DNA from: Bacteroidia bacterium
GTDB lineage: Bacteria > Bacteroidota > Bacteroidia > NS11-12g > UBA955
Assembly (NCBI GenBank): GCA_023653095.1
Contig: JAMNXP010000005.1
Location: 58,048-122,047, forward strand
Length of the DNA stretch: 64,000 bases
Direction of reading: 5' to 3'
The notes beneath the pieces are model-generated. The model was not told the DNA's origin. It ran no database searches and saw only the letters and a program-made list of their open reading frames with translations. The translations under genes and the position numbers were made by a program. Of this stretch, positions 10,520 through 59,144 are shown in pieces. The stretch's first letter is position 1. Every line of letters begins with the position of its first letter.

Positions 10520-10523
10520 TCTT

Positions 10524-10838: not shown

Positions 10839-10841
10839 GCC

Positions 10842-38509: not shown

Positions 38510-38825
38510 TAATCGGTTTTCGGTGGTCGGTTTTCGGTGGTCGGTTTTCGGTGATCGGTGATCAGCCGACAGACGATTAGTGTAGAGTGTAGAGTGTAGA
38601 GTGTAGAGTGTAGAGGCAGCGGTCAGCTTCGCTTGGCGGTCAGCTCTCAGCGGTCAGCGGTCAGCCGCGGCTTTGCCGCCAGCAGCTCTCAGCCTACAGC
38701 CTTCAGCGGTGGTTCTGACGCCAAGCAGCACCAAAGGTGCCAAGCAGCGCGAAGCGCAAGTCCTAGCGAAGCGCCAGTCATAAAGTCTCCGGCGCAGCCG
38801 TCAACTCTCAATCCTAAACTCTAAG
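38510..38825. repeat. Composite short-repeat tract between typA and a DUF1016 remnant
   Basis: This gene-free stretch of about 350 bp holds GGTCGGTTTTC repeats, five tandem TGTAGAG units (38581-38615), degenerate GCGGTCA heptamers, and the 45-bp unit ccaagcagcgcgaagcgcaagtc shared in reverse with 14.8 kb. It ends in caactctcaatcctaaactct, whose complement encodes the tail of the next ORF. Confidence 0.85.
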
Positions 38826-39672
38826 GTAGCAGCAATCACTCTATTTCTTGCCCGTTTCAATATCAAATATTTCGTGTAGTTTTTGTTGTAAAATTTTCTT
38901 GTCAGGTAGTTTTGTTTTAATTCAGAAACCATTGTTGAAGAAAGGCTTCTACTCATAGCATATTCTACAACTTCACTATCTTTATCCTTGCACAATAGAA
39001 CTCCAATGCTAGGATTTTCATTTGGCTTTTTAAGGTTTCTGTCTAATGCTTCCAAGTAAAAGTTAATCTGACCCAAGTGTTCGGCTTTAAACTTGTCTGC
39101 TTTAAGTTCGAAAGCTACCAAGCATTGAAGCCCACGATGGTAAAAAAGCAGGTCAATATAAAAGTTGCTATTGCCAACTTGTAACTTGTATTCTTCTCTA
39201 AAAAATAAGTAATATTTTCCAAGTTCGAGAATGAAATTTTTCATTTGGCTTACAAGTCCACGCTATAAGTCGGTTTCACTGTGGTGGTCCGGCAAGTTCA
39301 AAAATTCAAACACATAGCTGTCTTTGAAGGTGTTAGAATTGTTTTTATTTCTTTCTCTGCTTGTTTGGTGTAGAAGCTGATTTTAAGTTCGTTTTCGGAA
39401 CGTAAAATTTCAAAATAATGACTCCAACTCAATACGTTAGACAGCGACTCACTTTTTGGGAAAGCCAGGTAAAGTTTTCTCATGTAAAGCAAGTTAGACC
39501 TACTAAATCCCTTCCCATATAATCGTGTAAGGTCCTTTGAAAGCTTCTCAAAAAGGAAACTTCCATATTCTGCCTTTTCCTTGCCTCCTTGCTCAAATTC
39601 AACGATGTTTCTGCCGATTAGCCAATAAGTCTGAACTAAAATAGTATTTACAGATTTAGCAACACGCTGTAA
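38801..39672 (-). pseudogene. Broken DUF1016 (YhcG-type) PDDEXK nuclease gene
   Basis: Two track ORFs are pieces of one DUF1016 gene. The N-terminal piece is open from 39672 and reads VNTILVQTYWLIGRNIVEFE and FSRSNLLYMRKLYLAFP. It then runs through SENELKISFYTKQAEKE, where most of the middle (the NWSVRELKRQ-type region) is missing and the frame shifts. In another frame YVFEFLNLPDHHSETDL can be read, followed by an in-frame stop. The C-terminal nuclease piece resumes at FILELGKYYLFFREE, with FYIDLLFYHRGLQCLVAFELK. The first residues of the family are also missing. The last residues (LEFRIES) come from a short-repeat sequence. The gene is decayed. Confidence 0.85.
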
Positions 39673-39687
39673 CTACCTGGTGAGGCT

Positions 39688-40044
39688 TCACGACTGACGT
39701 TCGACTTCTAAAACCCTTAAAATGTCAGCATAATTCTGAGGCAAATGTTTGGTTGCAATGTCCCAAAGAATTTCATAGTCAATTCCAAAGTACTCGTGTG
39801 ATATTCTATTTCTTAATCTGTACATTTCTTCCCACGGAATATTCGAATATTTATCTTTTAACTGCCGAGGCAAATTTTTACTCGCTTCACCAATAATTTC
39901 GAAATTTCGGATTACTGCATCAACAGTCTTATAGTCCCACTTGAAATGTTGAAAGTCTAGTCCCTCAATGTATTCCTGAACTCTTGCCATAGACAATTGC
40001 ATGTCTTCCAAATAAAGAATTGGATCTCTTTCGCTCGGTTTCAA
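39688..40044 (-). CDS. HEPN-domain protein, HepT-like (DUF86) toxin
   Basis: This 118-residue HEPN protein keeps the RNase-type motif Rx4-6H as RNRISHEYFG near residue 80, together with MARVQEYIEG and IRNFEIIGEASKNLP, typical of HepT. In studied pairs HepT is a toxin neutralised when the MntA nucleotidyltransferase adds AMP near this motif. It starts four bases inside the end of the MntA-like gene at 40041-40331, so the pair is translationally coupled and looks intact. Confidence 0.88.
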   Translation of the reverse strand: MKPSERDPILYLEDMQLSMARVQEYIEGLDFQHFKWDYKTVDAVIRNFEIIGEASKNLPRQLKDKYSNIPWEEMYRLRNRISHEYFGIDYEILWDIATKHLPQNYADILRVLEVERQS

Positions 40045-40331
40045 ATGTAGTGGACTTGGTTTAAAATAGGATCTTTGATTCTTTCTTTAAGAGCATTTTT
40101 TGTTACGAGGTCAATTGGGATTCCAAATGATTGTTCCAGAAAACGTTCAAGTGTAAAGAACTCCCAGCCGATTGGCTCTGAAAATTCAACAAGTATATCT
40201 AGGTCGCTACTTTCGTTTTGTTTATCATTTGCGAATGAGCCGAAATAGCCAATTTGACTAACGTGAAACTTGTAAGTAAGTTCCGGCTTTATTTGCCTTA
40301 ATTTAGTTTCTATTTCTGCTCTGGTCAACAT
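40041..40331 (-). CDS. MntA-like minimal nucleotidyltransferase (antitoxin)
   Basis: This 96-residue protein has the nucleotidyltransferase signature GSX10DXD (GSFANDKQNESSDLD) near residue 31 and the third acidic position in PIDLV. It is the partner of the HepT-like gene immediately downstream, with a 4-bp overlap. The 5' end overlaps by 29 bp the truncated HEPN remnant of the upstream module, suggesting that the two modules were joined by a deletion. Confidence 0.88.
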   Translation of the reverse strand: MLTRAEIETKLRQIKPELTYKFHVSQIGYFGSFANDKQNESSDLDILVEFSEPIGWEFFTLERFLEQSFGIPIDLVTKNALKERIKDPILNQVHYI

Positions 40332-40521
40332 ATATGCAATTTATGAAATTTTCTTGGATTACATTCTTAAGTTTATAGTCCATTTGCCGTGAACAAGCAA
40401 ATCTCATCATTGAATTGTTCAGAAATGCTTCATAATCAGTGTCGATTAAATAGGATTCTATTTCGACAATTGCATCAAGAATATGTTTCAACCGAGCATT
40501 GTCTCCCAATCTACCGCGCAT
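40303..40521 (-). pseudogene. Truncated HepT-like HEPN remnant
   Basis: This 72-residue ORF begins like HepT (RLKHILDAIVEIESYLIDTDYEAFLNNSMMRFACSRQ). It then departs from the family where an EIIGEA-type helix is expected and ends in an unrelated tail overlapping the next gene. The catalytic Rx4-6H motif is lost, so it cannot act as an RNase toxin. It overlaps the upstream MntA-like gene by 11 bp. Confidence 0.7.
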
Positions 40522-40804
40522 AAATTAGCTTCTTTTCGTTGTCAACTATTGGCTTAATGTATTTTGACAGGCTGTTAGAAGAGACTAAGTCTACTTTCTT
40601 TTTAAGAATTCGCTCAAGATCTATCTGCATTTGAACGAAACCCAAACCGATCCTTTGAGAATAATCTAATTCGACTAAAATATCAATATCGCTTTGGTTG
40701 TCAGATTGTCCCCTAACATAAGAGCCAAATAAATATGCTTTAAGAACTGGTCGAGTTCTAAAGTACTCTTTGATGGCTTCTAAAGTTGGGTTGTCCAAAT
40801 ACAT
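40511..40804 (-). CDS. MntA-like minimal nucleotidyltransferase (first module)
   Basis: This 97-residue nucleotidyltransferase keeps GSYVRGQSDNQSDID (GSX10DXD) and KVDLV. It has lost its full-length HEPN partner (only the truncated remnant at 40303-40521 follows). It may therefore be an orphan antitoxin, or it may act on the HEPN protein of the second module. The second possibility is inference. It is not closely identical to the other MntA copy, so the two modules are not a recent duplication. Confidence 0.85.
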   Translation of the reverse strand: MYLDNPTLEAIKEYFRTRPVLKAYLFGSYVRGQSDNQSDIDILVELDYSQRIGLGFVQMQIDLERILKKKVDLVSSNSLSKYIKPIVDNEKKLIYAR

Positions 40805-40835: not shown

Positions 40836-40868
40836 TAGTTGGCCCTCAACTCTCAACCCTAAACTCTA
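40836..40868. repeat. Short-repeat segment (CTCAACC/CTAAACT)
   Basis: The segment ccctcaactctcaaccctaaactcta has the same family as the tracts at 38.8 and 60.6 kb. It overlaps the 3' end of the ADP-ribosylglycohydrolase gene. Confidence 0.6.
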
Positions 40869-41808
40869 TGCGCTCTGCGAGATTCACAATGTCTTCTGAA
40901 CGGGCGAGTTGCGATAACCAATGGGCGGGAATGGAGCTGAGGGGGTAAAAAAGTCCTGCAATTCCCCCGGTAACACATCCCACGGTATCGGTATCATCGC
41001 CGAGGTTCACCGCCTTGAGAACGGCATCCGAAAAGTTGGAGGTGTTCAGGAAGCACCACATGCTGGCTTCGAGAGTGTCAATCACAAATCCGGTGCTTTT
41101 TATTTCGGGGGACGCTAAACTGTCGAAATCTGCTGAAAGTAGCCGCTCGAAATAGGGCATGGTGCCTTCATCAGGGGATATGGTAGAGAGGAAATTCGTG
41201 AAGTTCAGGATGTGATTTTGGAATGCCTCTTCCTTGGTTTTGGCTTGGATGAGTTCGCGGGCGAATTCGGTGTAATAAAAGCAACTGATATAGGATAAGG
41301 CATGCGCATGAGTGATTTTGGACACTTCCGTGGTGATGCGAAAGCGCTCGTGGATGGGCAGATTGGCGGTGTAAAATGCTAAGGGCAAAGTACGCATGAG
41401 GGAACCATTTCCGTTGCTGTTGATGGTGTATTTGCCGCTAAATTTTGGTGAATGGCCATCGGCGAGTTTTTCCATGACTTCTTGGGTTGTAAGTCCAATA
41501 TCGAAAATGCTACCTCGTGCCGTCCAGAATCGCTCCTTGTACCATTTAAGAAAATAATGAGCTGTACGATCTAATTCATATCCTTCAATCAAACTTTCGG
41601 CAAGGCAAAACGCCATCGATGCATCGTCGGAAAAGGTACCTGGCACCTGCGAATGCGTTCCAAATCCCATAAAATCTGTCACCGGATGTTCAATCAGGTA
41701 TTCTCTTGGCTTAAACTCCACCGGAACCCCCATCGCATCACCAATGGCTAGGCCTAGGAAGGCAGATTTAATGGTGTTGGTGGCAATGATAATAGGAGCG
41801 TGAGGCAT
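40846..41808 (-). CDS. ADP-ribosylglycohydrolase family protein
   Basis: This 320-residue protein of the DraG/ARH fold removes ADP-ribose from proteins or nucleic acids. The metal ligands lie in AIGDAMGVPVEF, FSDDASMAF and LGDDTDTVGCVTGGIAGLFY. These are the three acidic clusters of the family, although Ala replaces the usual Thr in the second. The last residues (IEFRVES) are encoded by a repeat-tract sequence, suggesting that the original C-terminus was replaced. It sits beside toxin-antitoxin genes, consistent with a role in reversing toxic ADP-ribosylation (inference). Confidence 0.88.
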   Translation of the reverse strand: MPHAPIIIATNTIKSAFLGLAIGDAMGVPVEFKPREYLIEHPVTDFMGFGTHSQVPGTFSDDASMAFCLAESLIEGYELDRTAHYFLKWYKERFWTARGSIFDIGLTTQEVMEKLADGHSPKFSGKYTINSNGNGSLMRTLPLAFYTANLPIHERFRITTEVSKITHAHALSYISCFYYTEFARELIQAKTKEEAFQNHILNFTNFLSTISPDEGTMPYFERLLSADFDSLASPEIKSTGFVIDTLEASMWCFLNTSNFSDAVLKAVNLGDDTDTVGCVTGGIAGLFYPLSSIPAHWLSQLARSEDIVNLAERIEFRVES

Positions 41809-43736: not shown

Positions 43737-44225
43737 TTAAAATATCCTGAACTCAGGAATAGAATGTGAATTGAAGAAATCACTCTGAATTGTACTTAAA
43801 TAAGTTGGGCTGATAATGTCGTCTTCTAGATATTCTTCAAAATCAGGATGAACATTCATAATCAAGTCATTGCTTATTTTCAACTTGCTCTTGATTACTT
43901 TGAAAAACTTTATTTCACTGTATTCAATTTTATCATCTGCCTTGATGGTATCAATAGCAGTTTCGATGATTTTAAGTTCCTCTGCTTCAGAGAGGTCAGC
44001 ATTGGTTAAGTCTTGGAAATACATCTTCAAAAATCCATGACCTTCGTTATTGATCGAAACAACCATTGTTGTTAATTCTTCATTTAGATTGATGTCGCCA
44101 AAAATTTGCTTTTCGGAGTGCATTTTTCTGATCATTTCAATTTCTTTATTGTCAATTTCACCGTCACACGCCATGCAGGAAAATGCAGTTTTTAGTAGTA
44201 ATTGATTAAAACTTTCTTGTTCCAT
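43737..44225 (-). CDS. TerB-like protein
   Basis: This is a 162-residue soluble, acidic helical protein. Residues 8-36 (LLKTAFSCMACDGEIDNKEIEMIRKMH) resemble the first half of TerB (tellurite resistance B) domains, with the conserved acidic DGEID. A second, related half lies at about 85-120 (IIETAIDTIKADDKIEYSEIKFFKVI). TerB domains are proposed metal-binding adaptors in stress and conflict systems and are often found near kinases. It starts 12 bp after the kinase-AAA gene, consistent with a shared complex (inference). Confidence 0.7.
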   Translation of the reverse strand: MEQESFNQLLLKTAFSCMACDGEIDNKEIEMIRKMHSEKQIFGDINLNEELTTMVVSINNEGHGFLKMYFQDLTNADLSEAEELKIIETAIDTIKADDKIEYSEIKFFKVIKSKLKISNDLIMNVHPDFEEYLEDDIISPTYLSTIQSDFFNSHSIPEFRIF

Positions 44226-44237
44226 AATTTTAATATT

Positions 44238-46004
44238 TTAAAATCCGATTTTATTAGGTTTGTTGGTATTGTCGTTGTTTCCGTCAAAATGAGATTGTAT
44301 ATCGGTATACCGTTTTAACTCGCTTCTTGAAAGTGAGGGTTTTTTCATTTCAATAGATTTATGAATCATTTCTGATGTAATTCTTGACTTTGCTTTTAAG
44401 GCCATTCTAGAAGCTTCATCGCACAAGAACTTGATATCGCTTGAAACATAATATTCAGTTGCATGTGCAAAGGATTGATAATTCATTCCAATTTCAATTG
44501 GTCGATCTTTTAGGTATAATTTGAACATCAATTCGCGAGCTTCCAAATCCGGAGGTGGGAGATAAATGTGTTTGTCTAATCTCCCTGCTCTTAAAATCGC
44601 TGGATCAATTGCGTTAGGTCTATTTGTTGCGCCAATTACGAAAACACCTTCGGCTCCAATGTTATTCATTTGGGCTAAAAACTCGTTCACAGCGCTTGTA
44701 TTCATGTGGTTAACTCCAGAATCATCCCGGTTTGGCACCAGTGCGTCTAATTCATCAATGAAAACGATACTTGGGGCATTTTTTCGGGCTTGATCAAAAA
44801 GATTTTTGATGTTTTCTTGGGACGCATTTACCCATTTACTTTGGATGTCTGAAGGTTTAATTTGGAAAAAGTCAAATCCAATTTCTTCAGCCAACTTTTC
44901 AGCAAAAAAGGTTTTACCACAACCTGGAGGGCCATAAAGTAACATGCCATTTGGGATTGTAAGACCGTACTCTCTGTATCTGTCTTTTTCGGTCAATGCG
45001 TCAATTACATCGAGTTTTAGAGTGTCCTTCAAATCTTGCATTCCAGCAATTGATTTAAATCCATCTCCCTTTTTTGTAATATTATTGGGAGTTTTTGTAT
45101 TTGTATCCTCAGAAATAATAGAATTTTCAAATTGAAACTCCCCGTTTAATGCCTTTATGAATTCATTGGTGCTTTGAAATCGACTTTCTGGTTGAAGGTG
45201 TAATGCTTTAGAAATTATTTCTATGGTTTCTGGGCTGATTTTATTATTGCTTTGTAATACTTTAAGGGGTTTTCTGCGTTCAGATAAAATTTGGTCTTCA
45301 ATTAATAGCGCGTCTGATTTATAATTTGATATCTCAAAAAACCAGGGAGTAATTCCAAACAATAAATGATAATAAAGTGCTCCCACAGAGAAAATATCAC
45401 CTTGAATTGAAAATACTAGATTGAATTTTTCACCAGCGGTATAAAAAGGATTTAATCCTATTTTATTGAAGTCTTTATTTGGTTGGCTTTGAAAACGGGC
45501 ATAACCAAAATCTATGATTTTTGGAACTGGAATTTTATTGGAAAGGTCCAACATGACATTCAAATTTGTAATGTCATTATGAATGATTGGATCGGCCTGA
45601 TTATGAAGGTAATTTAAACCATTGAGTACGCCAGATATGATGTCTTTTGCTTCATATGGATTTAAATTTTGTTCTCTTTTCATTTTATCTGAAAGAGTTT
45701 CACCACTAATGAAATCTAAAATTGCAAAGGCAAATTTTTGATTGTCAATTACCACATCTCCACTGTCGTGAAATTTAACAATGTTCGGATGATTTAATTT
45801 CTTTAGGATTTCAATTTCCACAATTTCTGCATTTGCATTAAATTGAGTTCTATGTAGTCTAGAGTAAAAAAACAGTTTTAGCAGTTTGATGTTATTGTTG
45901 CTATCTTTAACTCGATATGTTTCTGCGTAGCTTCCTCTTTTTAAGAAGAAGACAACGGTATATTTACCATTAATTGTCTGGCCTTGGGATAAAACGGAAT
46001 TCAC
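44238..46004 (-). CDS. Protein kinase fused to a p97/Vps4-like AAA+ ATPase
   Basis: This single 588-residue protein has two enzymatic domains. Residues 14-290 are a Ser/Thr-kinase fold: glycine loop LKRGSYAETY, possible lysine KLLKLFF, catalytic loop IHNDITNLNVML (HND replaces HRD but the Asp and Asn are kept), DFG as KIIDFGYARF, and the conserved GDIFSVGALYYHLL helix. After a 25-residue linker, residues 318-560 are an AAA+ module: Walker A GPPGCGKTFF, pore-loop SKWVNAS, Walker B IVFIDELDAL, sensor/arginine-finger stretch GATNRPNAIDPAILRAGRLDK. Kinase activity could gate an unfoldase or remodelling hexamer. No membrane segment is seen. The combination is unusual. Confidence 0.88.
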   Translation of the reverse strand: MNSVLSQGQTINGKYTVVFFLKRGSYAETYRVKDSNNNIKLLKLFFYSRLHRTQFNANAEIVEIEILKKLNHPNIVKFHDSGDVVIDNQKFAFAILDFISGETLSDKMKREQNLNPYEAKDIISGVLNGLNYLHNQADPIIHNDITNLNVMLDLSNKIPVPKIIDFGYARFQSQPNKDFNKIGLNPFYTAGEKFNLVFSIQGDIFSVGALYYHLLFGITPWFFEISNYKSDALLIEDQILSERRKPLKVLQSNNKISPETIEIISKALHLQPESRFQSTNEFIKALNGEFQFENSIISEDTNTKTPNNITKKGDGFKSIAGMQDLKDTLKLDVIDALTEKDRYREYGLTIPNGMLLYGPPGCGKTFFAEKLAEEIGFDFFQIKPSDIQSKWVNASQENIKNLFDQARKNAPSIVFIDELDALVPNRDDSGVNHMNTSAVNEFLAQMNNIGAEGVFVIGATNRPNAIDPAILRAGRLDKHIYLPPPDLEARELMFKLYLKDRPIEIGMNYQSFAHATEYYVSSDIKFLCDEASRMALKAKSRITSEMIHKSIEMKKPSLSRSELKRYTDIQSHFDGNNDNTNKPNKIGF

Positions 46005-46018
46005 GATATTTTTTAATA

Positions 46019-47539
46019 TTAATGGTTAACGGTATTTTGGGCTACAATTAATTCAATTTCTTTTAGGGTATTGTGAAGATTTATTTGATTATTATTGGTG
46101 CTTATTTCATCATACAGTAGCTGAAAAAAAGTAGAGGTTATTATGTTTTCTTGTGCGAGTTGAAATATTAATTCTTCTATTTGAAATTGCTCTAAAGTTT
46201 GATTGTTCCGAATTGAATCTGAAATGCCAAGACTTTCTATAACAACGGATAATTTCTGCGGATCAATAATATGGCAACAAGTATTTTCAGCTTTTGTTGT
46301 AATCTGTCTACTTTCGTCTATATCTTCAATAGTCTTATTGTTAAGCCAGTTATAAAAGGATGTTCTATTTGTGTTTTGTTGCAATTGATGATTTAAATTT
46401 TCTGTTTCTGAAGTCCAATGTATTTTTGATGCATAAACAGCAGCACCTTCTGCAACTGCGGTGATTGGATCTAAGCTTGTATCAGGGGTGCAAATTTGTT
46501 TAGAGAGCATTTTTCTCAAAATAGGTGATATTGTAGGGCCACCTACAAGAATTAGGGATGATATAGACTTCTCATCCAGTCCATTTCGCTTTAATAGTGT
46601 TAACGAGATATCAATCGCTCTTTGAATTAAGGGCGCAATGACTAATTCTAAATCTTCACGATTAACAGAAATTTCCAATTCGAATTCACTGCCGTTGTCA
46701 TCTTCCCAGGGTATGTTACCTAAATTGGAGAGTATGGTAGTTGCTTCATTGAATGAAAGTTGTTCTTGAATTTCCTGAGCATAAAATTTCATTTCGTTCC
46801 GGATTTTTTTATTTTTTTCCGGATCCTCAAGCAGTTCGTCAACGGCATATTTCCGCTTCAAGTATGGAATTATGATATTATCTATTATTGCTTCAACAAG
46901 GGATTTATTTCCTAAATATTGATTACCCTCTGTATCTATAACTTTAATGCCTTCGTTATTTGTACTCAATAGAGTAGCGTCGAAAGTTCCCTCACAAAAA
47001 TGAAAAATCAGGTCAATTCCCACTTTTTCTTCTGACTTTGAATAATATAGATGACCTACTGCTTCGGCTTCTGAAATTATCTCACAATCATCAAAACCAG
47101 CCAATTTTGCGGCTTCTCGAGTATGTTCTATTTGGCTTTTTCCAAATTTGAATGGAACTGTAATCACTGCTGCAATTATAGTTTCATCTTTTTCGAATGA
47201 TTTAAGGGTCTTCAAGACCTCTGCCGATAATTCAATTGAGTTGAAAGATCGATTGGCATTTGAACTACAATATTTAAGATCAGACCCCATGGTTCGTGTG
47301 AATTCTATGAATGAATTGTCATTTTCAGTATTCCAATCTTTCATCGCACTCAATTTTTCTAGCTTATGAGCAGAGAAAGCCCCATCGCCGACATGCATTG
47401 CACCTTTTCGATTTATAAAAACCACCGTTGGCGTAAATGGTCTCAATGTGTTACTCCTTATTATCTGGGTAATACCGTTTTGAAATTTCACAATACTGGA
47501 ATTATATATTCCTAGATGAATTCCATAACTTGAGACCAT
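46019..47539 (-). CDS. Degenerate Hsp70 paralogue (pseudo-ATPase) without substrate-binding domain
   Basis: These 506 residues are clearly homologous to the ATPase domain of the Hsp70 at 48.2 kb, but the catalytic signatures are altered. Phosphate-1 DLGTTNS is HLGIYNS, the catalytic Lys position (FKRTMG) is FTRTMG, EPEAA is EAEAV, and phosphate-2 FDFGGGTFD is FHFCEGTFD. The adenosine motif LVGGPTISPILRK is intact. ATP hydrolysis is unlikely. In place of a substrate-binding domain there are about 130 residues, including a helical end (FQIEELIFQLAQENIITSTFFQLLYDEI) that looks like a small protein-interaction domain. It may regulate or scaffold the active Hsp70. Confidence 0.85.
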   Translation of the reverse strand: MVSSYGIHLGIYNSSIVKFQNGITQIIRSNTLRPFTPTVVFINRKGAMHVGDGAFSAHKLEKLSAMKDWNTENDNSFIEFTRTMGSDLKYCSSNANRSFNSIELSAEVLKTLKSFEKDETIIAAVITVPFKFGKSQIEHTREAAKLAGFDDCEIISEAEAVGHLYYSKSEEKVGIDLIFHFCEGTFDATLLSTNNEGIKVIDTEGNQYLGNKSLVEAIIDNIIIPYLKRKYAVDELLEDPEKNKKIRNEMKFYAQEIQEQLSFNEATTILSNLGNIPWEDDNGSEFELEISVNREDLELVIAPLIQRAIDISLTLLKRNGLDEKSISSLILVGGPTISPILRKMLSKQICTPDTSLDPITAVAEGAAVYASKIHWTSETENLNHQLQQNTNRTSFYNWLNNKTIEDIDESRQITTKAENTCCHIIDPQKLSVVIESLGISDSIRNNQTLEQFQIEELIFQLAQENIITSTFFQLLYDEISTNNNQINLHNTLKEIELIVAQNTVNH

Positions 47540-47583: not shown

Positions 47584-48234
47584 TTACAATGCTTCATCTG
47601 GGTCACTTGGTAAGGTCTGGAAATTGCCGTTTGTTTGCAACTTTAGCTCGTAAGTTAGAGTTGAGTTTTGCAGTAATTGGGGTTCATCTTTACCAAATGC
47701 TTCATCAGTGATAAAGCCACCCTTGAGCTTGCCACCCTTCATTTCTTTGTTCGGATTCCACCCTTTGCCATAATAGAAAAACGCTTGGTAAGTTCCATCA
47801 GGAAAAGAAAAGGTATATTGGTCGCCTGAACTAATGTAGGCATGTCTGAATACCCTGCCATTTTTCTTGATTGTTACAACTACATCCGAATTGCTTGTTT
47901 GTACCTTGATTTGAGAACAACCATATGAATTACAACTACTGTTCCCTCCATAATACTTGGCGTATGGTGTTCTTCCTGTTGGTAGGGTATTGTTGATGTA
48001 TTTTTCATATTCAAGCTGCTCAATCCTCTTTCGCTCTGCCTCCGCTTCTTGTTCAATACGGAGACGTTCCATTTCTTGAGCTTGTCTTTCTTGTTCTACT
48101 ATATCCAGCTGTTCAAGCCTAGTCGCTTCTTGTTCCTCTTCGTATAATCTAAGTTTTCTTTGAGCATCGCTTTCACATGATGTTAAAAACCCTACATTTA
48201 ATAATAGTAAAAGTGAGATTGTGTATCTTTTCAT
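47584..48234 (-). CDS. Lipoprotein with coiled coil and shared beta domain
   Basis: This 216-residue protein has a signal peptide with a lipobox-like FLTSC near residue 20. It then has a charged coiled coil (about 25-78, EEEQEATRLEQLDIVEQERQ onward), a Gly/Asn/Cys spacer (NSSCNSYGCS), and a beta domain with AYISSGDQYTFSFPDGTYQAFFYYG. That domain is also found in the SH3 protein at 42939-43724. It would be anchored in the inner or outer membrane facing the periplasm. It lies between the two Hsp70 genes (gaps of 11 and 44 bp). Confidence 0.68.
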   Translation of the reverse strand: MKRYTISLLLLLNVGFLTSCESDAQRKLRLYEEEQEATRLEQLDIVEQERQAQEMERLRIEQEAEAERKRIEQLEYEKYINNTLPTGRTPYAKYYGGNSSCNSYGCSQIKVQTSNSDVVVTIKKNGRVFRHAYISSGDQYTFSFPDGTYQAFFYYGKGWNPNKEMKGGKLKGGFITDEAFGKDEPQLLQNSTLTYELKLQTNGNFQTLPSDPDEAL

Positions 48235-48245
48235 AACTTTAATTA

Positions 48246-50804
48246 TTAACCTCTTAGAACTCCTATTGGAGGACCGCCAGGCCCTCCGTCTTTGGGGCCA
48301 TTTTCTCCATAGCCAGCATTATCAAAAATATCGTTGACAATCGGTTGAAGGTTATCAATTGTGGGTGAGTCATAAATGATATTTTTACCTTGGTCAACAG
48401 TTATTCTTGCTGATCTCCTGTCTTTCCAGTTGATCTCATTGAAATCTCTATCATGCCACAAAATAAACGCCATTAAATGTTCAATTCTCTCTAATTCAAA
48501 TGCAACAGAATTTATCATTTTGATTAGTTCTGGAGTATTCTTCTTATCCTGATCCTTGATTGCTTGTTCCACATTTGCTCTTATTTCATTGACCTTATGA
48601 GCAGTGTGTTCATTTCCTTTTTTCTTGTTAACATCTTCTAATTTATGAAATGCTGCCTTGAGCTCTTTTTCTAACTTAGGCCATTCGCTTTCTTCTTCAA
48701 TGCTATCTACAGATTTTAAAACTTTCCGCAAATTTTCCAAAGTCTGTTGTTGGTTATCTGGGGATATTTTGTCTCTTTCAAATTGGATTTTAATATTTTC
48801 TAATTCTACTTCTATCTTTTTAAATTCATCTTCATCTCCAATTGTTCCTTTGGATTTCAATTGTTTAATTGAATCTAATCCTTTGTCGATTTCCGATGTA
48901 AGTAAAGTAGCCATATCAGTCCCGGTTTTATCTGTATTTGTCTCGCATATGAAATAATGAGTATGGTCTAAATAGGGGAAAATGGCTTTGCCGTGGATCA
49001 CCTGATTTATATCAACTTTTAATTCTACATCAACATCACTATTTGCCGGCAATAGAGCAGGAAGATCATTTCCTGTAATATAAATTGTATTCACGTGATG
49101 ATTGTAAATAGCTCTGGACCTGTCAACATTATGTTCTCCTTGATATATGGCAATTTTCAAATAGTCAGAGGCCATTCCAGGGCGAATTTGTGAAGGTGTT
49201 TTCAAATTAGGCTTAACGCCAACAGCAGGCAACTGTTTTGATTTAGTAAGTCCTTCAACTACACGGAATTCTAGTTTTCCAGTATTTATGTCTTGAATCT
49301 CAATTCCGATATTGTATGGTAAGACAGCATTTCCTCCCTTACTACCTTGTATAATATTGAAGCTCGATGGTTCACATTCTAATTTGTTACCTGTGTCGTC
49401 AAATAGGGTGATTTCAAAATTATTTAATTTGCCAGAAATTAGCTGTACAGAAATGATTTCTCCCAATTCGTTTATGGAAACACTGCCACTGGACCAGCCA
49501 CCATCTTGACGACTAATATGAACAAATAATTTATCTGGTATTTTATTTTCGGTTTTTTCTTTCAGTATTTTAACGACAACATGCTCTTCCAATTCAACCG
49601 TTGCTGATTCATGGTTAATTTCCAATTGTATTTTTGTTGGGTTAAATACCGTGGTTTCTTGGTTCCGCTTAATGGTGGAGGCATAAATTGCGGCACCTTT
49701 TGCTACAGCAGTCATTGGATCAACGCTTGTATCTGGAGTGCAAATTTGTTGAGAAAGCATTTTTCTCAATATTGGTGACATCGTAGGGCCACCTACAAGA
49801 ATTAGAGAGGATAATGATTTACCATCCAAGCCATTTCGCTTTAATAGGGTTAACGAGATATCAATCGCTCTCTGGAATAAAGGCGCAATGGCAACTTCTA
49901 ATTCTTCACGGTTAACAGTTATTTCTAATTCGAATTCATTGCCGTTGTCATCCTCCCCTGGAATGTCGCCTAAATTGGTGAGTATGATAGTTACTTCGCT
50001 GAAAGAAAGTTGTTTTTTAATTTCCTCAGCATAGAACTTCATTGCGTTCCGAATGATTTTATTTTTGTTTGAATCTTTCAGGAGTTCATCAATGTCAAAA
50101 TTTTCCTGAAGATATGGAATTATAATACTGTCAACAATCGCTTCGTCAAGGTTTTTACCTCCTAGATAATTGTCTCCTTCCGTATCTATAACTTGTCTGA
50201 TTCCATCGGTTACTCTGAGTAGGGCAGAATCAAAAGTTCCCCCTCCAAAGTCAAAGACGAGCCAATAACCATCTTTTTTATCTCCATTGAAACCATAAAC
50301 CCATGCCGCTGCTTCTGGTTCTGTGATAATCTCTACTTGGTCAAAGCCAGCTAATTTACCCGCTTGTCGGGTATGCTCAATTTGATTGCTTTTGAATGCA
50401 GCAGGAACAGTAATAACAGCTGTGTTTATAGTTTCATCTTTCTCAAATGATTTAAGGGTCTTCAAGACCTCTGCCGATAACTCAATTGAGTTGAAAGATC
50501 GATTGGCATTTGAACTTTTATACTGAGCATCAGACCCCATGGTACGTTTGAATTCTATGTAAGAATTGTCATTTTCAGCATTCCAATCCTTCATCGCATT
50601 CAATTTTTCTGCCTTAAGTGCATTAAAAGCAGCGTCACCAACTTGCATTGCACCTTTTCTATTTACATACACACAAGAAGGCATTGTGTCTTTTAGTGTA
50701 TTGCTTCTTACACTTTCTGAGGTTCCGTTGTTGATTTTGGAAATGGCAGAATTGGTGGTGCCTAAGTCTATGCCAAAGTCAACGGTTGTTCTACTTTTTG
50801 TCAT
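48246..50804 (-). CDS. Hsp70-family chaperone with an insertion between ATPase and substrate domains
   Basis: This 852-residue Hsp70 is longer than DnaK (about 640). The ATPase domain (1-385) is complete: GIDLGTTNSAI, FKRTMG, TEPEAAAWVYG, FDFGGGTFD, LILVGGPTMSPILRKML. About 100 residues of beta-rich sequence (VHISRQDGGWSSGSVSINEL and onward) then lie where DnaK has its short linker. A SubBD-like part follows (PYNIGIEI, DYLKIAIYQGEHNVDRSRAIYNHH), then a long helical lid (about 620-810) and a Gly/Pro tail. It is likely the working ATPase of the cluster, served by the J-like and GrpE-like products upstream. It is not the housekeeping DnaK. Confidence 0.9.
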   Translation of the reverse strand: MTKSRTTVDFGIDLGTTNSAISKINNGTSESVRSNTLKDTMPSCVYVNRKGAMQVGDAAFNALKAEKLNAMKDWNAENDNSYIEFKRTMGSDAQYKSSNANRSFNSIELSAEVLKTLKSFEKDETINTAVITVPAAFKSNQIEHTRQAGKLAGFDQVEIITEPEAAAWVYGFNGDKKDGYWLVFDFGGGTFDSALLRVTDGIRQVIDTEGDNYLGGKNLDEAIVDSIIIPYLQENFDIDELLKDSNKNKIIRNAMKFYAEEIKKQLSFSEVTIILTNLGDIPGEDDNGNEFELEITVNREELEVAIAPLFQRAIDISLTLLKRNGLDGKSLSSLILVGGPTMSPILRKMLSQQICTPDTSVDPMTAVAKGAAIYASTIKRNQETTVFNPTKIQLEINHESATVELEEHVVVKILKEKTENKIPDKLFVHISRQDGGWSSGSVSINELGEIISVQLISGKLNNFEITLFDDTGNKLECEPSSFNIIQGSKGGNAVLPYNIGIEIQDINTGKLEFRVVEGLTKSKQLPAVGVKPNLKTPSQIRPGMASDYLKIAIYQGEHNVDRSRAIYNHHVNTIYITGNDLPALLPANSDVDVELKVDINQVIHGKAIFPYLDHTHYFICETNTDKTGTDMATLLTSEIDKGLDSIKQLKSKGTIGDEDEFKKIEVELENIKIQFERDKISPDNQQQTLENLRKVLKSVDSIEEESEWPKLEKELKAAFHKLEDVNKKKGNEHTAHKVNEIRANVEQAIKDQDKKNTPELIKMINSVAFELERIEHLMAFILWHDRDFNEINWKDRRSARITVDQGKNIIYDSPTIDNLQPIVNDIFDNAGYGENGPKDGGPGGPPIGVLRG

Positions 50805-50827: not shown

Positions 50828-51766
50828 TTATTCACCTATACTTACTTCAATTTGAGCAGATTGAATCATTTTCCCATTGAAATTTACTTGTGGTTTTATG
50901 ACACGTGTGATTATTCTTTTACCAACTTCAATTGAATCACTTGGGATAAAGTTTGCGGTAACATTCATGCCTTCGTTGTATTCTAATTCCAGCATTTCAA
51001 CAATTTCATAACCTTTGGCCAAATAATTTTCTTTAATGCTTTTTACGGCACTTTTGAGTTGCTTAAGGCCTTTGGTATTTGGATCCATTCGATAGTGATT
51101 GGTCTCCATAGCAGTTAGACGGTCAGCTATTTTTAGAACTAATGAATGGTCCTCAGTCGAACTTTCATTGCCTTTTTCTCGGATGAGCTCAATTTGTTGT
51201 TCGAGAATTTTAACCAATTGACCATCAAGTTTTAAACTTTCTTCCTCTAAGGCCGTTTTTGTTTTAAGGATTTGTGTTTCAATAGCAGATTTATTTGATT
51301 TGATTATTTTATTTATCTGGAGAAACATAAAGGATCCCAATAGCACAATCAATAAACTTCCTCCAACCCAATAAACACTATTTGTTTGGAGGTTATTGTC
51401 TATCTTATCAATTTGGTTTTTTGTGGCAGAAGTTGTTGTATCAATTTTTAATCCTAATTCTTTTGAAATAGTATTTAAATTTTGATTTATTAAAAGAGTT
51501 TTTTGAAGTAAACTATCATATTTTAGTTCACTATTAGTCAATTTTGATTCAACAGTCTTTAACTGTTTTTTTAACTTAGATATTTCAATTGAATGCTCTT
51601 TTAATGCGATTTTCTGCTGATCAAAGTCTATTTTTCCTTCAATCTTTAATGAACTAACCTTGGAAATGGCTTGGATTGACCTATTTGGATTTGCTGCTAG
51701 ACTGAAATTAAAAGTTGAAAAGGAAATCAACCATAAAATTAGTGATGGTATAAATGTGTTTTTCAT
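50828..51766 (-). CDS. Membrane-anchored coiled-coil protein with GrpE-like C-terminal domain
   Basis: This 312-residue protein has a signal peptide (1-24), a periplasmic coiled coil (about 45-128), one transmembrane helix (about 132-151, WVGGSLLIVLLGSFMFLQI) and a cytoplasmic part. The cytoplasmic part has a second coiled coil (155-200), a short helical region (205-250) and a beta-rich end. The end reads KGYEIVEMLELEYNEGMNV, then IITRVIKPQVNFNGKMIQSAQIEVSIGE. This parallels GrpE: long helix pair, helical bundle, beta wing. It lies 23 bp upstream of the Hsp70 gene, so I infer a membrane-tethered nucleotide exchange factor. Sequence similarity is weak, so this needs a profile search. Confidence 0.6.
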   Translation of the reverse strand: MKNTFIPSLILWLISFSTFNFSLAANPNRSIQAISKVSSLKIEGKIDFDQQKIALKEHSIEISKLKKQLKTVESKLTNSELKYDSLLQKTLLINQNLNTISKELGLKIDTTTSATKNQIDKIDNNLQTNSVYWVGGSLLIVLLGSFMFLQINKIIKSNKSAIETQILKTKTALEEESLKLDGQLVKILEQQIELIREKGNESSTEDHSLVLKIADRLTAMETNHYRMDPNTKGLKQLKSAVKSIKENYLAKGYEIVEMLELEYNEGMNVTANFIPSDSIEVGKRIITRVIKPQVNFNGKMIQSAQIEVSIGE

Positions 51767-51771
51767 GTTGT

Positions 51772-53280
51772 TTAATTTTTTAAGTTAATGTTTACCCAAA
51801 CTAATAGGCTGATAATAAGTATTGCAGCAGCCCAACCAGCGCCGAATGCGGCCCAAACAATCAATACTATAGCAATAAATACCAATAGTAACTGAAAGTA
51901 GAAAATTCTATCTTGTTCTTCTTTCTTTTTACGTTCTTCTTCTTTTTCTTTTCTCTTTAATTCTTCATCTTGTTTGCGTTTTTCCTCCGCAATTACAAAT
52001 GGATGCGTATTGGGCAAGTGGGCAACAAATTTGTTGATAATCACAAATATTTCTAGACTAGCACCGTTTTTTCGAATGTAATCAGCTAATTCGATGAAAT
52101 TAGTGATGTACTCACTTCTATCAGTAGATGCGATTTTTTGTAAAACAGAGTTCGTTATTTCTTTCCTCAAGAACTCATCTACTTTAAAAATATTTAATTG
52201 TTTGGTATAATCTCGGTTGGTATCAATAATGATTTCCTTTAGTCGTTTTAAAATTTCTAAAGCAAAAAGTATATCAGAATATTTTAGGTCATCTAACTCC
52301 TTGAGATTCGAATCAATACGTTCAATGGTTACCGATGTTTTTGCAATTTGTTTTGCAGATTTTAATAATTCGATCGATTTTTTAATGGATAAATCACTTT
52401 TATCTCCTTTTGAATATGAGTCTATTCCGCATTGAATAATTTCTTTGGCAACATTGTCAGAAATCATTCTGTACTGCAAGTTGTTTTGGCCTAAAAGATT
52501 ATGAATTAAGTTTAAACCTTCGCGAGATTTATTGAGTAAATCCTTGCCATATAAGTAACCATCTTTTGGACTGTTTTTGCGTTTTGATTTTGTGTCTTCA
52601 ATTAATAGTTGAATTTCATGTAATGGCCCTTCGGTAAATTTTTTATTTATGTATGTAATTACATTCTGAGAGGAGTTATTAAATAGGTTTGCAATTTGGA
52701 CGCGATCAAATCGAGGAAGTAAACCAATTAATATGTCATCTATGAATTTTTCAAGTTGTTGCTGATTTGTAAAAGTGTAGGTTTGGGCATCACCAACATT
52801 CTTTACGAAATCAATAAAATTTTCTGATTCAATTAACTTGATTTTGAATTCTAAACCTTCTTTTATTTCATCTATGGTATTACTTAATAATTTTAATGTG
52901 CCGATATTATTGAAATATGAGAAGTTTTTAGAACTAAGTTCTTTTCCAGACGTAACTTTTGTCCAAATTTCAATCGCTTTATTCTTGTCACCATTTTTCA
53001 AATAGTTCAGAGCGGTACCGTCAAAATTGTTAACCTCAATAAACCAGAATAACGAGTTATTTATTTTGTCTTGATTTATTTCGATTTTAGTTGAAGCTTG
53101 AACTACCGTTGATTCATTTAATTGAATGGGGGTTAAAAAACTAAAATTATAATGGGAGTCATAGGATCGCCCAATGCTCAAGTTTTTTATTATAAGACTT
53201 TTTCTATTTTGAATCTCCCTTTCTGAAGAATTGGCCAACAAGCCCAAGATTCTGTAAGGATTATTCTCTATTAACTCCAT
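51772..53280 (-). CDS. J-like N-terminal domain protein with C-terminal membrane helices, HPD absent
   Basis: This 502-residue protein begins ENNPYRILGLLANSSEREIQNRKSL, which resembles helix I and the turn of J-domains. The HPD tripeptide that activates Hsp70 ATPase is not present. A long helical middle follows, with repeated WxKV and coiled stretches. It then has a charged coiled coil (about 425-455, KRKQDEELKRKEKEEERKKK) and two hydrophobic segments at the end (LLLVFIAIVLIVWAAFGAGWAAAILIISLLVW). It precedes the GrpE-like gene by 5 bp. I infer a divergent Hsp70 co-factor held at the inner membrane. The J assignment is tentative. Confidence 0.6.
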   Translation of the reverse strand: MELIENNPYRILGLLANSSEREIQNRKSLIIKNLSIGRSYDSHYNFSFLTPIQLNESTVVQASTKIEINQDKINNSLFWFIEVNNFDGTALNYLKNGDKNKAIEIWTKVTSGKELSSKNFSYFNNIGTLKLLSNTIDEIKEGLEFKIKLIESENFIDFVKNVGDAQTYTFTNQQQLEKFIDDILIGLLPRFDRVQIANLFNNSSQNVITYINKKFTEGPLHEIQLLIEDTKSKRKNSPKDGYLYGKDLLNKSREGLNLIHNLLGQNNLQYRMISDNVAKEIIQCGIDSYSKGDKSDLSIKKSIELLKSAKQIAKTSVTIERIDSNLKELDDLKYSDILFALEILKRLKEIIIDTNRDYTKQLNIFKVDEFLRKEITNSVLQKIASTDRSEYITNFIELADYIRKNGASLEIFVIINKFVAHLPNTHPFVIAEEKRKQDEELKRKEKEEERKKKEEQDRIFYFQLLLVFIAIVLIVWAAFGAGWAAAILIISLLVWVNINLKN

Positions 53281-53372: not shown

Positions 53373-54383
53373 TTATTTTTGACTTTGGATGGATTGATCC
53401 AACTCCTTGGTCATGTTGTTAATCGTGTGAATTCGTGTGTAGATTTGATATTCTAAAAGTTTTTCTAAATCGGTTTTTTGACCGTAAACTTTAGTGAATA
53501 CCACCAATAATTCGAGACTCAGTAAAAAGATGAAAACAAGAATATAAACAATTAGTGCGATTCTAGAATCTCTTAAAATTCCAATCATAAGTGAGAGTTC
53601 ATCTAAAAATCCTCTATTTTCTTCCAATTCTTTTTTAATGTTTTCATACAGATTTATTTTTTCGTCTTCTATTTTGCTAATCATATTATTTAAAAGCACA
53701 ATCTGCTGGCTGATTCTTTTTTTATCTTCGAATGCCGGATTGGTAATTTGAGTTCGATTGGTTTGTGTGACAGGTAATAAATTCAAATCTATATTTAGCT
53801 GTTCCTTGTCAATATCTTTTGGAATTTGTTTGCGGGTTGTCGACTCTGATATCACATTAATCAAAGGATTTTTGTTTAATTCGTCGGTTAATACTTGCTC
53901 CTTGCTTTTTTGCTCTTGCAATTGAATTTCCAGCTCGTTTTTGCGATTTTCGAGCTGCTTAGATTGGGAGGTTGTTATTTTTGTGGCTTCTTCGCCAACA
54001 ATCATGGTTTTTCTTTTATCGAGGTCATCAGAGTAAATGATTTGGTCCAAAATAAGTGAACCAATAATTGACATGACAATAGCCAGAGTGACACGGAAGC
54101 CTACGACTGCTCTATTTGAACTATTCGCCAAAATGATTTGGCGCTCAATTTGGATGACTATAAATGCAAGAATACATGCAGTGGCGATACTCGCAAATGT
54201 GCTCACATCCAAGTATCTGTGTGCAAATGAAAAGCCTACTAAAAACCAAAGAATAGAAATGATGAACAAACCTGCCAAATACTGTTTTATCTTCCCTTTG
54301 GCGGCTTCACTGCAGGTATTCAATAATTGGTAATTGAATCCGGTCAAAAAACAACCGAATTTTAAAATTCTATTTTCAATCAT
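53373..54383 (-). CDS. DUF4407 family membrane protein
   Basis: This 336-residue integral membrane protein matches the DUF4407 pattern. Three to four N-terminal helices include IKQYLAGLFIISILWFLVGFSFAHRYLD and FRVTLAIVMSIIGSLILDQIIY. A long coiled-coil/helical region (about 135-265) follows, then a final helix (IALIVYILVFIFLLSLELLVVFTK) and a short cytoplasmic tail. Function is unknown. In this cluster it could be the receptor or pore through which the periplasmic proteins signal to the chaperones. This is inference. It starts 1 bp after the unknown gene at 54385. Confidence 0.82.
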   Translation of the reverse strand: MIENRILKFGCFLTGFNYQLLNTCSEAAKGKIKQYLAGLFIISILWFLVGFSFAHRYLDVSTFASIATACILAFIVIQIERQIILANSSNRAVVGFRVTLAIVMSIIGSLILDQIIYSDDLDKRKTMIVGEEATKITTSQSKQLENRKNELEIQLQEQKSKEQVLTDELNKNPLINVISESTTRKQIPKDIDKEQLNIDLNLLPVTQTNRTQITNPAFEDKKRISQQIVLLNNMISKIEDEKINLYENIKKELEENRGFLDELSLMIGILRDSRIALIVYILVFIFLLSLELLVVFTKVYGQKTDLEKLLEYQIYTRIHTINNMTKELDQSIQSQK

Positions 54384-54979: not shown

Positions 54980-55333
54980 TTATTTTTTTATTATCGGAAC
55001 TTCGTACTTAGTGTGTCCTAACCCATGGCATTTTTTGCATAAGGTTACAAGTAAAGGGTTGCTGTATTCCCAAGGTTCAACGAATCTTCCAAGTTCTGAA
55101 TTGAAATGGTATTGCCTGTGATGAACTTGCAAGTCTTCGCCGGTTCCACAATTTCTACACTTGTTATTGTCTCGCTGAAGAATTTCTTGACGTTTGTTCT
55201 TCCATTCGATTTTGAACAGCGCTTCTTTGTAGCCACCGTGTTTTAAAGGTAAACTGACTGAGTATTGTGTATTGCTTTTAACCTCATTAATGCTGTTTTT
55301 TTGGCGATTTTTAAGTATATACCTTGATTTCAT
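54980..55333 (-). CDS. HNH endonuclease, first gene of the chaperone-kinase cluster
   Basis: Starting at MKSRYILKNRQKN (55333) gives 117 residues. The ORF-track start is a TTG five codons upstream. The HNH fold has two CxxC pairs (NKCRNCG and LCKKCHGLGH) around the core LQVHHRQY and NPLLVTLC. It is small enough to be a stand-alone nuclease or a zinc-finger-like adaptor. As first gene of the operon, next to the regulator, it could be the effector of a conflict system (inference). A consensus promoter lies 30 bp upstream. Confidence 0.8.
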   Translation of the reverse strand: MKSRYILKNRQKNSINEVKSNTQYSVSLPLKHGGYKEALFKIEWKNKRQEILQRDNNKCRNCGTGEDLQVHHRQYHFNSELGRFVEPWEYSNPLLVTLCKKCHGLGHTKYEVPIIKK

Positions 55334-55362
55334 TAGGCGTAAAAGCAATTATAGTCGAGCAC

Positions 55363-57139: not shown

Positions 57140-57730
57140 ATGGCAAAAGCAACGCAAAAAATCAAGATAATGGTCGGCTCTACGGTATATGGCTTTGAAG
57201 ACCAGCTTTCGCAGATTGTGGCTCAGTTGCAATTGCTTGATTATGAAGTCATTAACTCTTATAGTGGAAGTGTTAAAGTAAACCCTATTTTATCTAATTT
57301 AGATAATTGTCTCAATGCAGTAAAAGAATGTGATTTGTTTTTAGGCATCATTCGGCCATATTATGGCACGGGCAATATTGGCGAAAAGAACATCACTTTC
57401 GAGGAAATAAAATTAGCCATTAAACTCAAAAAGCCTTACTGGTTTTTAGTGCATCGAGATGTTGTTTTCTCCCGGTTGCTTTTTAGTAAATTGAAACTGA
57501 AGTCTGGCGATGAAATTGTGATAGAACCTAATCGCTTTTTTGATAAACGTACCATTGAAATTTATGATTATATAATCAAGAATCATGAACGGATAACAAT
57601 GCGTAATGGAAATTGGGCGCAGGAGTTTTACCGACTTGATGAAATGATGACTTACATCAATACACAATTTTCTGATTCGGATTTTGTTCAAAATATTCTT
57701 AATGAAAAAATGGTAAAAAATGGAAAATAG
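57140..57730 (+). CDS. DUF4062 domain protein
   Basis: This 196-residue protein has a DUF4062 pattern in residues 5-115: KIMVGSTVYGFEDQLSQIVAQL, CLNAVKECDLFLGIIRPYYGTG, then ITFEEIKLAIKLKKPYWFLVH. The fold is regarded as TIR-like and is often found at the N-terminus of NTPase-type sensors, though no catalytic Glu can be claimed here. It overlaps the next gene by 11 bp, so the two are translationally coupled. Pairing with an AlbA-type ATP-binding protein is seen in other accessory regions, in my recollection. Confidence 0.82.
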   Translation: MAKATQKIKIMVGSTVYGFEDQLSQIVAQLQLLDYEVINSYSGSVKVNPILSNLDNCLNAVKECDLFLGIIRPYYGTGNIGEKNITFEEIKLAIKLKKPYWFLVHRDVVFSRLLFSKLKLKSGDEIVIEPNRFFDKRTIEIYDYIIKNHERITMRNGNWAQEFYRLDEMMTYINTQFSDSDFVQNILNEKMVKNGK

Positions 57731-59144
57731 TTTTATCATAGAAAATTTGCTGGAGCAACAGGTAGGTGATCGTTTAGAGTTTCAAGGAACTGTAAACAAA
57801 CAAGCTATTGCCAAAACAATTGCAGCTTTCATTAATGCTGAGGGTGGTGATTTACTGATTGGGGTGCATGGTAATAAGAGAATTGTTGGTGTTGAGAATG
57901 CGGAGAAAGTGCGTGTAACTATTCAGGAAATGCTGGTCGAATACATACAACCTATTGCTCCAATTTTTACACAGGTAGTTAATTACAAAAGGAAAGATTT
58001 AATTCACATTAGTGTTTGGGAAGGTGCAAAAAAGCCCTATCAGTTTAAAGGTAATATTTTTATCCGTGAAAACGATAGTACTAAATTGTCCTCTATCAGT
58101 AATTTAACTTCACTCATTAAAGACCGAAAAGAGGCCGATTTTCATTGGGAACGCAGAGCTGTTTTGGGCGCTACTCTACTGGATTTAGATACTGAAGAAA
58201 TCAATCAAACCATTGCTTTGTATAAAGAATACAAGCCCAATAATGTAATTCAAGATGTTGAGGATTTTTTAATTCAAATGGGCTTGATCCAAAACGGAAA
58301 TCTCACCAATGCTTGTATTGTTTTGTTTGGAAACAACCCAAGCCAATTTATTTCGCAATCTAAAATCAGGATCACCGTATATCCTTCCTCTATCTCAGGC
58401 GATAATTTTTTAAACGACAAAATATTTGATGGAAGCTTGTTCCAAAATATTACCGCAATACTCAATTTTATAGAAATCTCATTTGGCAAAAACATTGTTG
58501 TAGATGGTATCTTGCGCAAAGAGCAGTACAATTATCCATTATTAGCCGTTCGTGAAGGATTGCTAAACGCCATGGTTCACAGAGATTACAACTCAGTAAA
58601 CGGCTTCTTGCAGATTTCTATTTTTAGCGATAGAACCGAAATTTCCAATTATGGGGGATTGCCCCACGGAATAACTATCAAGGATTTAAAAAAGGAGCAC
58701 AACTCTATCCTCCGTAACCCAGATATCGCTCAGATATGTTTTATCAGAAAATATATAGAAATGCTGGGCAGCGGCACATTGCGTATGGTAAGTGATTGCA
58801 AAAAGAATGGATTTAGAATGCCCTTTTGGACAGATAAAAATAATATTACAACGGTAACTTTCCCCGGTCTTTCTATCAAAACCAAAGTTGCTAAAGGTGT
58901 AAATGAAGGTGTAAATGAAGGTGTAAAAAAAGTCTATTTTAAAGCCGAAAGTGAAGGTGTAAACGAAGAGCTAAACCTAATTTACTCAGTAATTGAGAAA
59001 ACGCCAGGATTAAAAGCACCGGCCATCGCAAAGGCTTTAGGTGTAAGCCTTTCAACAGCTGAAAGATATATTAGAAAATTGAAAGATGCTCAGTATATCA
59101 AATTTGTAGGCATACCCAAAACAGGTGGTTATTTTACCAATTAA
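57720..59144 (+). CDS. AlbA-type (divergent AAA-4) ATP-binding protein with winged-helix end
   Basis: This 474-residue protein has an N-terminal AlbA_2 domain (about 15-125: DRLEFQGTVNKQAIAKTIAAFINAEGGDLLIGVHGNKRIVGVE). It has the RecG-like C-terminal ATP-binding region (LLNAMVHRDYNSVNG, EISNYGGLPHGI, RNPDIAQICF, IEMLGSGTLRM) and a winged helix at the end (IEKTPGLKAPAIAKALGVSLSTAERYIRKLK). A run of GVNEGVNEGVKK...GVNEEL, coded by a 12-bp tandem repeat, links the last two. It is probably a regulator or sensor. With DUF4062 it may form a two-gene defence or stress unit (inference). Confidence 0.85.
   Translation: MENSFIIENLLEQQVGDRLEFQGTVNKQAIAKTIAAFINAEGGDLLIGVHGNKRIVGVENAEKVRVTIQEMLVEYIQPIAPIFTQVVNYKRKDLIHISVWEGAKKPYQFKGNIFIRENDSTKLSSISNLTSLIKDRKEADFHWERRAVLGATLLDLDTEEINQTIALYKEYKPNNVIQDVEDFLIQMGLIQNGNLTNACIVLFGNNPSQFISQSKIRITVYPSSISGDNFLNDKIFDGSLFQNITAILNFIEISFGKNIVVDGILRKEQYNYPLLAVREGLLNAMVHRDYNSVNGFLQISIFSDRTEISNYGGLPHGITIKDLKKEHNSILRNPDIAQICFIRKYIEMLGSGTLRMVSDCKKNGFRMPFWTDKNNITTVTFPGLSIKTKVAKGVNEGVNEGVKKVYFKAESEGVNEELNLIYSVIEKTPGLKAPAIAKALGVSLSTAERYIRKLKDAQYIKFVGIPKTGGYFTN

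Follow-up and report, generated by a model that had tools for sequence, protein, structure and literature searches.

E312, the 312-residue product of an ATG-initiated gene at 50828-51766 (minus strand), is probably a membrane-tethered nucleotide exchange factor of the GrpE fold working for the Hsp70 of the adjacent gene, as judged from its open reading frame, its orthologues and a predicted structure. The gene lies in a window of 64,000 nucleotides from a Bacteroidia bacterium (contig JAMNXP010000005.1, positions 58,048 to 122,047). GrpE is normally a soluble factor that reloads Hsp70 chaperones with ATP. E312 appears to be part of a membrane-bound Hsp70 machine, together with its own Hsp70, a kinase-AAA protein and a TerB-like protein, that is unnamed in public family libraries.

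The protein begins with a signal-peptide-like stretch (residues 1-24, 51695-51766; this and the following segments are on the minus strand), which by hydropathy is clear in several orthologues and weaker in the window copy. It is followed by a predicted periplasmic coiled coil (residues 25-130, 51377-51694) of poor sequence conservation, whose PDB matches are coiled-coil chains only, and by a transmembrane helix at about residues 131-152 (51311-51376), seen in the hydropathy of the window protein and its orthologues. Lysine and arginine residues directly follow this helix, which by the positive-inside rule indicates an N-out/C-in orientation, so that the last 160 residues should be cytoplasmic. 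The adjacent Hsp70 starts without a signal peptide and must therefore be cytoplasmic, on the same side as the C-terminal part of E312. In the structural model, this part comprises a long helix (residues 157-199, 51170-51298), which aligns with 1dkg residues from 37 onwards and is the equivalent of the GrpE dimer stalk, two short helices (residues 208-226 and 234-250, 51017-51145), which correspond to the GrpE helix bundle and contain a conserved DHxLxLK motif, and a six-stranded GrpE-like β-wing (residues 253-311, 50834-51010) with the conserved pattern GYE...PQVN..GKMIQxAQIEV.

In an alignment of eight sequences, the first invariant residue is L143, within the transmembrane helix; all the others are cytoplasmic and cluster most closely in the final 60 residues. 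Conservation is highest in the wing, where P292 and Q293 are invariant. Orthologues with 26-54% identity retain the same layout, which is thus not due to chance. The E protein of locus L055 has a single N-terminal transmembrane helix and misses the periplasmic coil, and represents an intermediate form. With a transmembrane helix and a signal-peptide-like N terminus in its sequence, E312 is not a soluble protein of the GrpE kind. The order of signal peptide, periplasmic coiled coil, transmembrane helix and cytoplasmic C-terminal domain had been proposed in the original prediction, and is confirmed by the reading frame, the hydropathy, the orthologues and the structural model.

The cytoplasmic domain (residues 155-312) was modelled with AlphaFold2 from a shallow alignment of 12 orthologous sequences, with a mean pLDDT of 83 and a pTM of 0.55. 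The model consists of three helices (3-45, 54-72 and 80-96 in the model numbering) followed by six strands (99-157). This succession agrees with the stalk, bundle and wing order described for GrpE (PMC4753570), and all the elements that define the GrpE fold, namely the stalk helix, the short helices and the six-stranded β-wing, are present. When the model was compared with the PDB using Foldseek, the 13 leading matches were all GrpE or GrpEL1 (E 1.9e-5 to 0.11, best probability 1.00), which is the reverse of the confident match to another fold that would have spoken against the original prediction. The first match outside GrpE had an E-value of 0.31 and a probability of 0.33. VIA-align superimposed the model onto E. 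coli GrpE (1dkg_A) with a Z-score of 8.8 over 151 residues, the best non-GrpE chain reaching 5.4. In the structural alignments with GrpE, the sequence identity is 7-19%, the TM-scores are moderate (0.33-0.54) and the r.m.s.d. is large, as the helix angles differ. A Z-score near 8-9 is by itself modest for a helical protein; it is the GrpE-exclusive list of matches to the predicted structure, together with the full-length coverage, that carries the case.

At the sequence level, E312 has no Pfam or NCBIfam GrpE match. The best full-length orthologue, in locus L054, scores 16.8 bits with the Pfam GrpE family PF01025 (E 0.0057, profile positions 12-164 of 165), under the gathering cut-off of 25.8 bits, and the best match in the C-terminal set of orthologues has an E-value of 0.00067. 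Searched against the PDB with hmmsearch, the full-length family profile retrieved coiled coils only, and neither the C-terminal profile alone nor that of a set of short soluble relatives retrieved GrpE. Plain HMMER is thus too insensitive here, and the assignment depends on the profile-profile and structural comparisons. When the profile of 14 E312 orthologues was compared with that of 36 GrpE sequences using hhalign, the probability was 78-85%; it rose to 88% upon addition of the member from locus L021, and to 95.1% (E 3.2e-8, 101 columns) with the short relatives. Two longer C-terminal cuts gave scores of 39-40, against at most 25 with 60 block-shuffled GrpE alignments and 12 with reversed GrpE, and homology to GrpE is thus detectable above the controls. 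In a profile comparison with 377 single proteins of the loci studied, 30 of which are GrpE, the 16 best matches were all GrpE. In the hhalign alignment, the GrpE pattern KGYxLN[DG][KR]x[LI]RxAxVxV pairs with KPQVNFNGKMIQSAQIEV of the E312 family, the K-G-Y of GrpE being replaced by P-Q-V-N. The family is thus supported as a divergent GrpE-fold family and not canonical GrpE; the name GrpE-like is proper, since its members fall under the Pfam cut-off and E312 is not soluble.

The wing is also found in shorter proteins. In genome G202 (locus L102), a 95-residue soluble protein with the same wing is encoded directly upstream of an Hsp70 gene. Proteins of 114-123 residues hold the same position on six plasmids (loci L058-L063) of Pseudomonas, Shewanella, Aminobacter, Vibrio, Aeromonas and Polaromonas, where an AAA or ATP-binding protein follows the Hsp70 in four of the six loci; two copies lie beside Tn7-like tnsA-E genes and one near zorA. 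These proteobacterial plasmid cassettes often also encode proteins with peptidoglycan-binding domains. The profile of the short plasmid proteins matches that of E312 with a probability of 92-93% (hhalign). Both the membrane anchor and the periplasmic coil are absent from the soluble relatives. Sequence comparison thus points to the wing as the constant part of a wider family, the anchor and periplasmic coil being seen here in Bacteroidota only.

The E312 gene stands directly upstream of the Hsp70 gene (48246-50804, minus strand), as the original prediction had it, at a distance of 23 bp, and 5 bp separate it from an upstream gene for a J-like helical protein (51772-53280, minus strand). The order J-like, E and Hsp70 is identical in ten Bacteroidota loci including the window, with 5-32 bp between E and Hsp70, and with an overlap of up to 35 bp or a gap of up to 9 bp between J and E. 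E also adjoins Hsp70 in loci L054 and L055. Further downstream, all ten loci have a gene for a kinase-AAA protein, in which a Ser/Thr kinase is joined to an AAA ATPase of the CDC48 type (44238-46004, minus strand, 588 residues; Pkinase 1.5e-34, AAA 5.7e-40). It is accompanied by the gene of a TerB-like protein (43737-44225, minus strand, 162 residues), which has a weak TerB match (0.0021) and keeps its place in the orthologous operons, with the exception of locus L020, where the AAA gene is close to the contig end. No GTPase, including GAP1-N2, was found among ten operon proteins scanned.

The dedicated Hsp70 (852 residues, Pfam HSP70 8e-58) has intact ATPase motifs (DLGTTNS, FKR, GGGTFD and VGGPT) and a helical C terminus. 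Its linker is replaced, and its substrate-binding part is strongly diverged: a putative SBD-β-like stretch aligns with 26% identity over 94 columns at a probability of 10%, and no PDB match to this part was found by sequence. In the nucleotide-binding domain, the loop NSEGRRTTPS of the DnaK of this genome is changed to NTLKDTMPS in the dedicated Hsp70, so that the classical contact between GrpE and Hsp70 may not apply.

In the window, two genes lie between those of the Hsp70 and the kinase-AAA protein. The first (47584-48234, minus strand) encodes a coiled-coil, lipoprotein-like protein of 216 residues, half of a related 417-residue protein in locus L053. The other encodes a second, truncated Hsp70 of 506 residues (46019-47539, minus strand; Pfam HSP70 4.7e-37), and a second Hsp70 occupies the same place in L053 (4794-7250, minus strand). 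The ATPase motifs are broken in both copies; in that of the window, which has also lost the substrate-binding part and is probably catalytically dead, GIDLGTT is changed to GIHLGIY, FKR to FTR and DFGGGTFD to HFCEGTFD. In the nucleotide-binding domain, each copy shares about 68% identity with its own neighbour but only 41% with the other copy, which suggests independent duplication followed by decay in two lineages. The window operon also encodes lipoprotein-like and SH3 proteins. A DUF4407 membrane protein (53373-54383, minus strand), not seen in the orthologous loci examined, is encoded directly upstream of the J-like gene, and a small HNH protein with a weak IscB match (E 3.9e-5, far under the cut-off) heads the operon (54980-55348, minus strand).

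The original prediction had placed E312 downstream of a J-like gene. The position is correct, whereas the J identity is weak. The protein (502 residues) starts with NPYRILGL and ends with a C-terminal transmembrane segment. In profile comparison, a stretch of 27 residues at its N terminus is similar to helices I-II of the J domain (score 24 versus 16 for shuffles), and the HPD motif is absent from all 11 aligned orthologues. The fold search retrieved helical repeats only, covering residues 83-423 well and remaining silent on the first 80. A normal J partner for E312 is therefore doubtful and, on its sequence, weakly supported.

E312 could instead have the GrpE fold but no exchange activity and be a membrane docking scaffold for the Hsp70 or for its dead paralogue, exchange being left to the housekeeping GrpE. 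The canonical GrpE encoded in the same genome, the dead Hsp70 paralogues in two loci and a wing conserved in its own pattern (PQVN, with the invariant P292 and Q293) in place of the KGY of GrpE would fit such a role. However, the conservation of the wing above all other parts speaks for a conserved contact there, and the cassette Hsp70 retains its ATPase motifs, so that the scaffold is considered unlikely. Another alternative, an ordinary coiled-coil membrane protein of the septum-formation-initiator or AtpF type whose likeness to GrpE is accidental, might be read from the PGAP name 'septum formation initiator' of a plasmid orthologue and from the transmembrane and first helices, which weakly match F0F1 subunit b in NCBIfam (E 0.014). 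It is highly improbable and largely refuted by the fold, profile and gene-neighbour evidence, which all favour GrpE. The main reading of the original prediction is supported, namely that E312 is anchored in the membrane, carries a GrpE-type domain and has an Hsp70 gene as its neighbour.

As a membrane-tethered exchange factor, E312 would have its N-terminal half exported to form the periplasmic coiled coil, with one helix crossing the inner membrane; in the cytoplasm, the stalk helix, the bundle and the β-wing would form a GrpE-like module. This module is presumed to work as GrpE does, dimerising through the stalk and placing one of its wings in the nucleotide cleft of the Hsp70 to release ADP. 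The tether would hold client release by the cassette Hsp70 at the inner membrane. The kinase-AAA protein would probably take over or remodel the same clients.

Clear relatives of E312 have a patchy spread. Of 395 genomes searched in the phylum with the C-terminal profile, six contain one, and so do six of 395 searched in the class with the full-length profile, the window's own genome being counted in both cases. In the class, 51 genomes were matched by the full-length profile, only six of them strongly; most of the others were coiled-coil matches and were discarded. Loci L056 and L103 were dropped as family members after inspection of their neighbourhoods. The 13 other genomes of the genus contain no relative and a scan of viral contigs found none, whereas one other was found among 57 relatives. 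Apart from the window operon, the window's own genome carries two more clear Hsp70 genes.

The cassette has BREX, PglZ and SIR2 genes as neighbours on a Haliscomenobacter plasmid (L057, NC_015512.1), type I restriction genes in L018, the PADLOC candidate protein PDC-S60 in L020, an integrase in L019 and a transposase in L051; other flanks are housekeeping genes (NFACT, POT transporter, M50 peptidase). The patchy spread and neighbours such as BREX, restriction, integrase and transposase genes fit a mobile, accessory five-gene cassette. The L057 orthologue (9965-10864) is the one annotated as a septum formation initiator by PGAP, very likely a misannotation caused by its coiled coil. In the window itself, the stretch downstream of the operon (38801-40804, minus strand) encodes a YhcG-type nuclease remnant, a HepT-like/nucleotidyltransferase (HEPN-MNT) pair and a second nucleotidyltransferase, and adjoins an ADP-ribosylglycohydrolase gene (40846-41808); this stretch is accessory or defence-like. 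Upstream (57140-59144, plus strand), the gene of a DUF4062 protein overlaps that of a Schlafen/AlbA_2 ATPase, a conflict-type pair.

The cassette most likely functions in phage defence or envelope stress. It is quite possible, if tentative, that the cassette is an anti-phage system in which E312 and the Hsp70 restrain the kinase-AAA effector until infection. The absence from the other genomes of the genus, the defence and mobility genes beside several copies, and the related Hsp70 pairs that are Tn7 cargo or lie near zorA argue for this use, whereas the housekeeping flanks of other copies and the lack of a recognisable nuclease or toxin among the five core genes argue against it. The PADLOC 2.0 models also miss the Hsp70: for the core genes no specific model was matched, the Hsp70s and TerB-like protein matching none, E and J nothing significant, and the kinase-AAA protein general kinase and AAA models only. 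A chaperone for envelope stress or membrane-protein quality control, in which the periplasmic coil would detect damage and adjust the cycling of Hsp70 inside the cell, is a more doubtful proposal. It would account for an exported coiled coil and a cytoplasmic exchange domain in one protein, and would suit the CDC48/FtsH-like AAA domain and the lipoprotein-like and SH3 proteins of the window operon, but the periplasmic part lacks sequence conservation and is missing in L055 and in the soluble relatives. More speculative still, and improbable at present, is a receptor function, whereby the periplasmic coil would report envelope damage or phage entry, set the exchange rate of the dedicated Hsp70 and so release the kinase-AAA effector. 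If so, Hsp70 nucleotide exchange would be a transmembrane signalling step.

The predicted fold of E312 agrees with GrpE (PF01025; 1dkg, 4ani, 3a6m, 8gb3) and mitochondrial GrpEL1 (9bls) in its long stalk helix, its pair of short helices and its six-stranded wing; E312 also shares with GrpE the wing pattern N-G-[RK]-x-[IL]-x-x-A-x-V-x-V and an Hsp70 as gene partner. It differs in its fusion to a transmembrane helix, a periplasmic coiled coil and a signal peptide, in its score under the Pfam cut-off, in being the second GrpE-like gene of its genome and in the P-Q-V-N that replaces K-G-Y in the wing. Neither a membrane-bound GrpE nor the five-gene order was found described in the open PMC literature.

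The GAP1-N2 GTPase systems of actinobacteria and firmicutes have neighbourhoods with Hsp70, GrpE and a truncated Hsp70 (Kaur et al. 2020, PMC7159879). Like the E312 cassette, they combine an accessory Hsp70 and GrpE in conflict-type loci, in some cases with a second Hsp70 devoid of the peptide-binding domain, and with DnaJ- or TPR-linked proteins. The E312 cassette, in contrast, has no GTPase, contains kinase-AAA and TerB-like proteins, is found in Bacteroidota and has a membrane-bound GrpE-like protein. The CnuD proteins of CoCoNuT systems (PMC11090510) are likewise diverged Hsp70-like proteins of accessory, defence-linked operons; that paper calls their Walker motifs degenerate and makes no mention of GrpE, whereas the main Hsp70 of the cassette retains its ATPase motifs and McrBC is absent. 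GrpS of Myxococcus xanthus (PMC10313047) is also an extra GrpE besides the housekeeping one; in the part of that report consulted, its conserved GrpE domain is recognised by alignment and no membrane anchor is described.

According to the review of Bracher and Verghese (PMC4753570), eubacterial genomes encode only one Hsp70 exchange factor, GrpE. In contrast, the genome studied here encodes, in addition to an ordinary GrpE, a membrane protein with a predicted GrpE-fold domain paired to its own Hsp70, and short soluble relatives accompany further accessory Hsp70s encoded by plasmids and Tn7-like elements. If this reading is true, release by Hsp70 can be restricted to the membrane, and current family libraries miss a class of mobile genes formed by dedicated triads of the J/E/K type.
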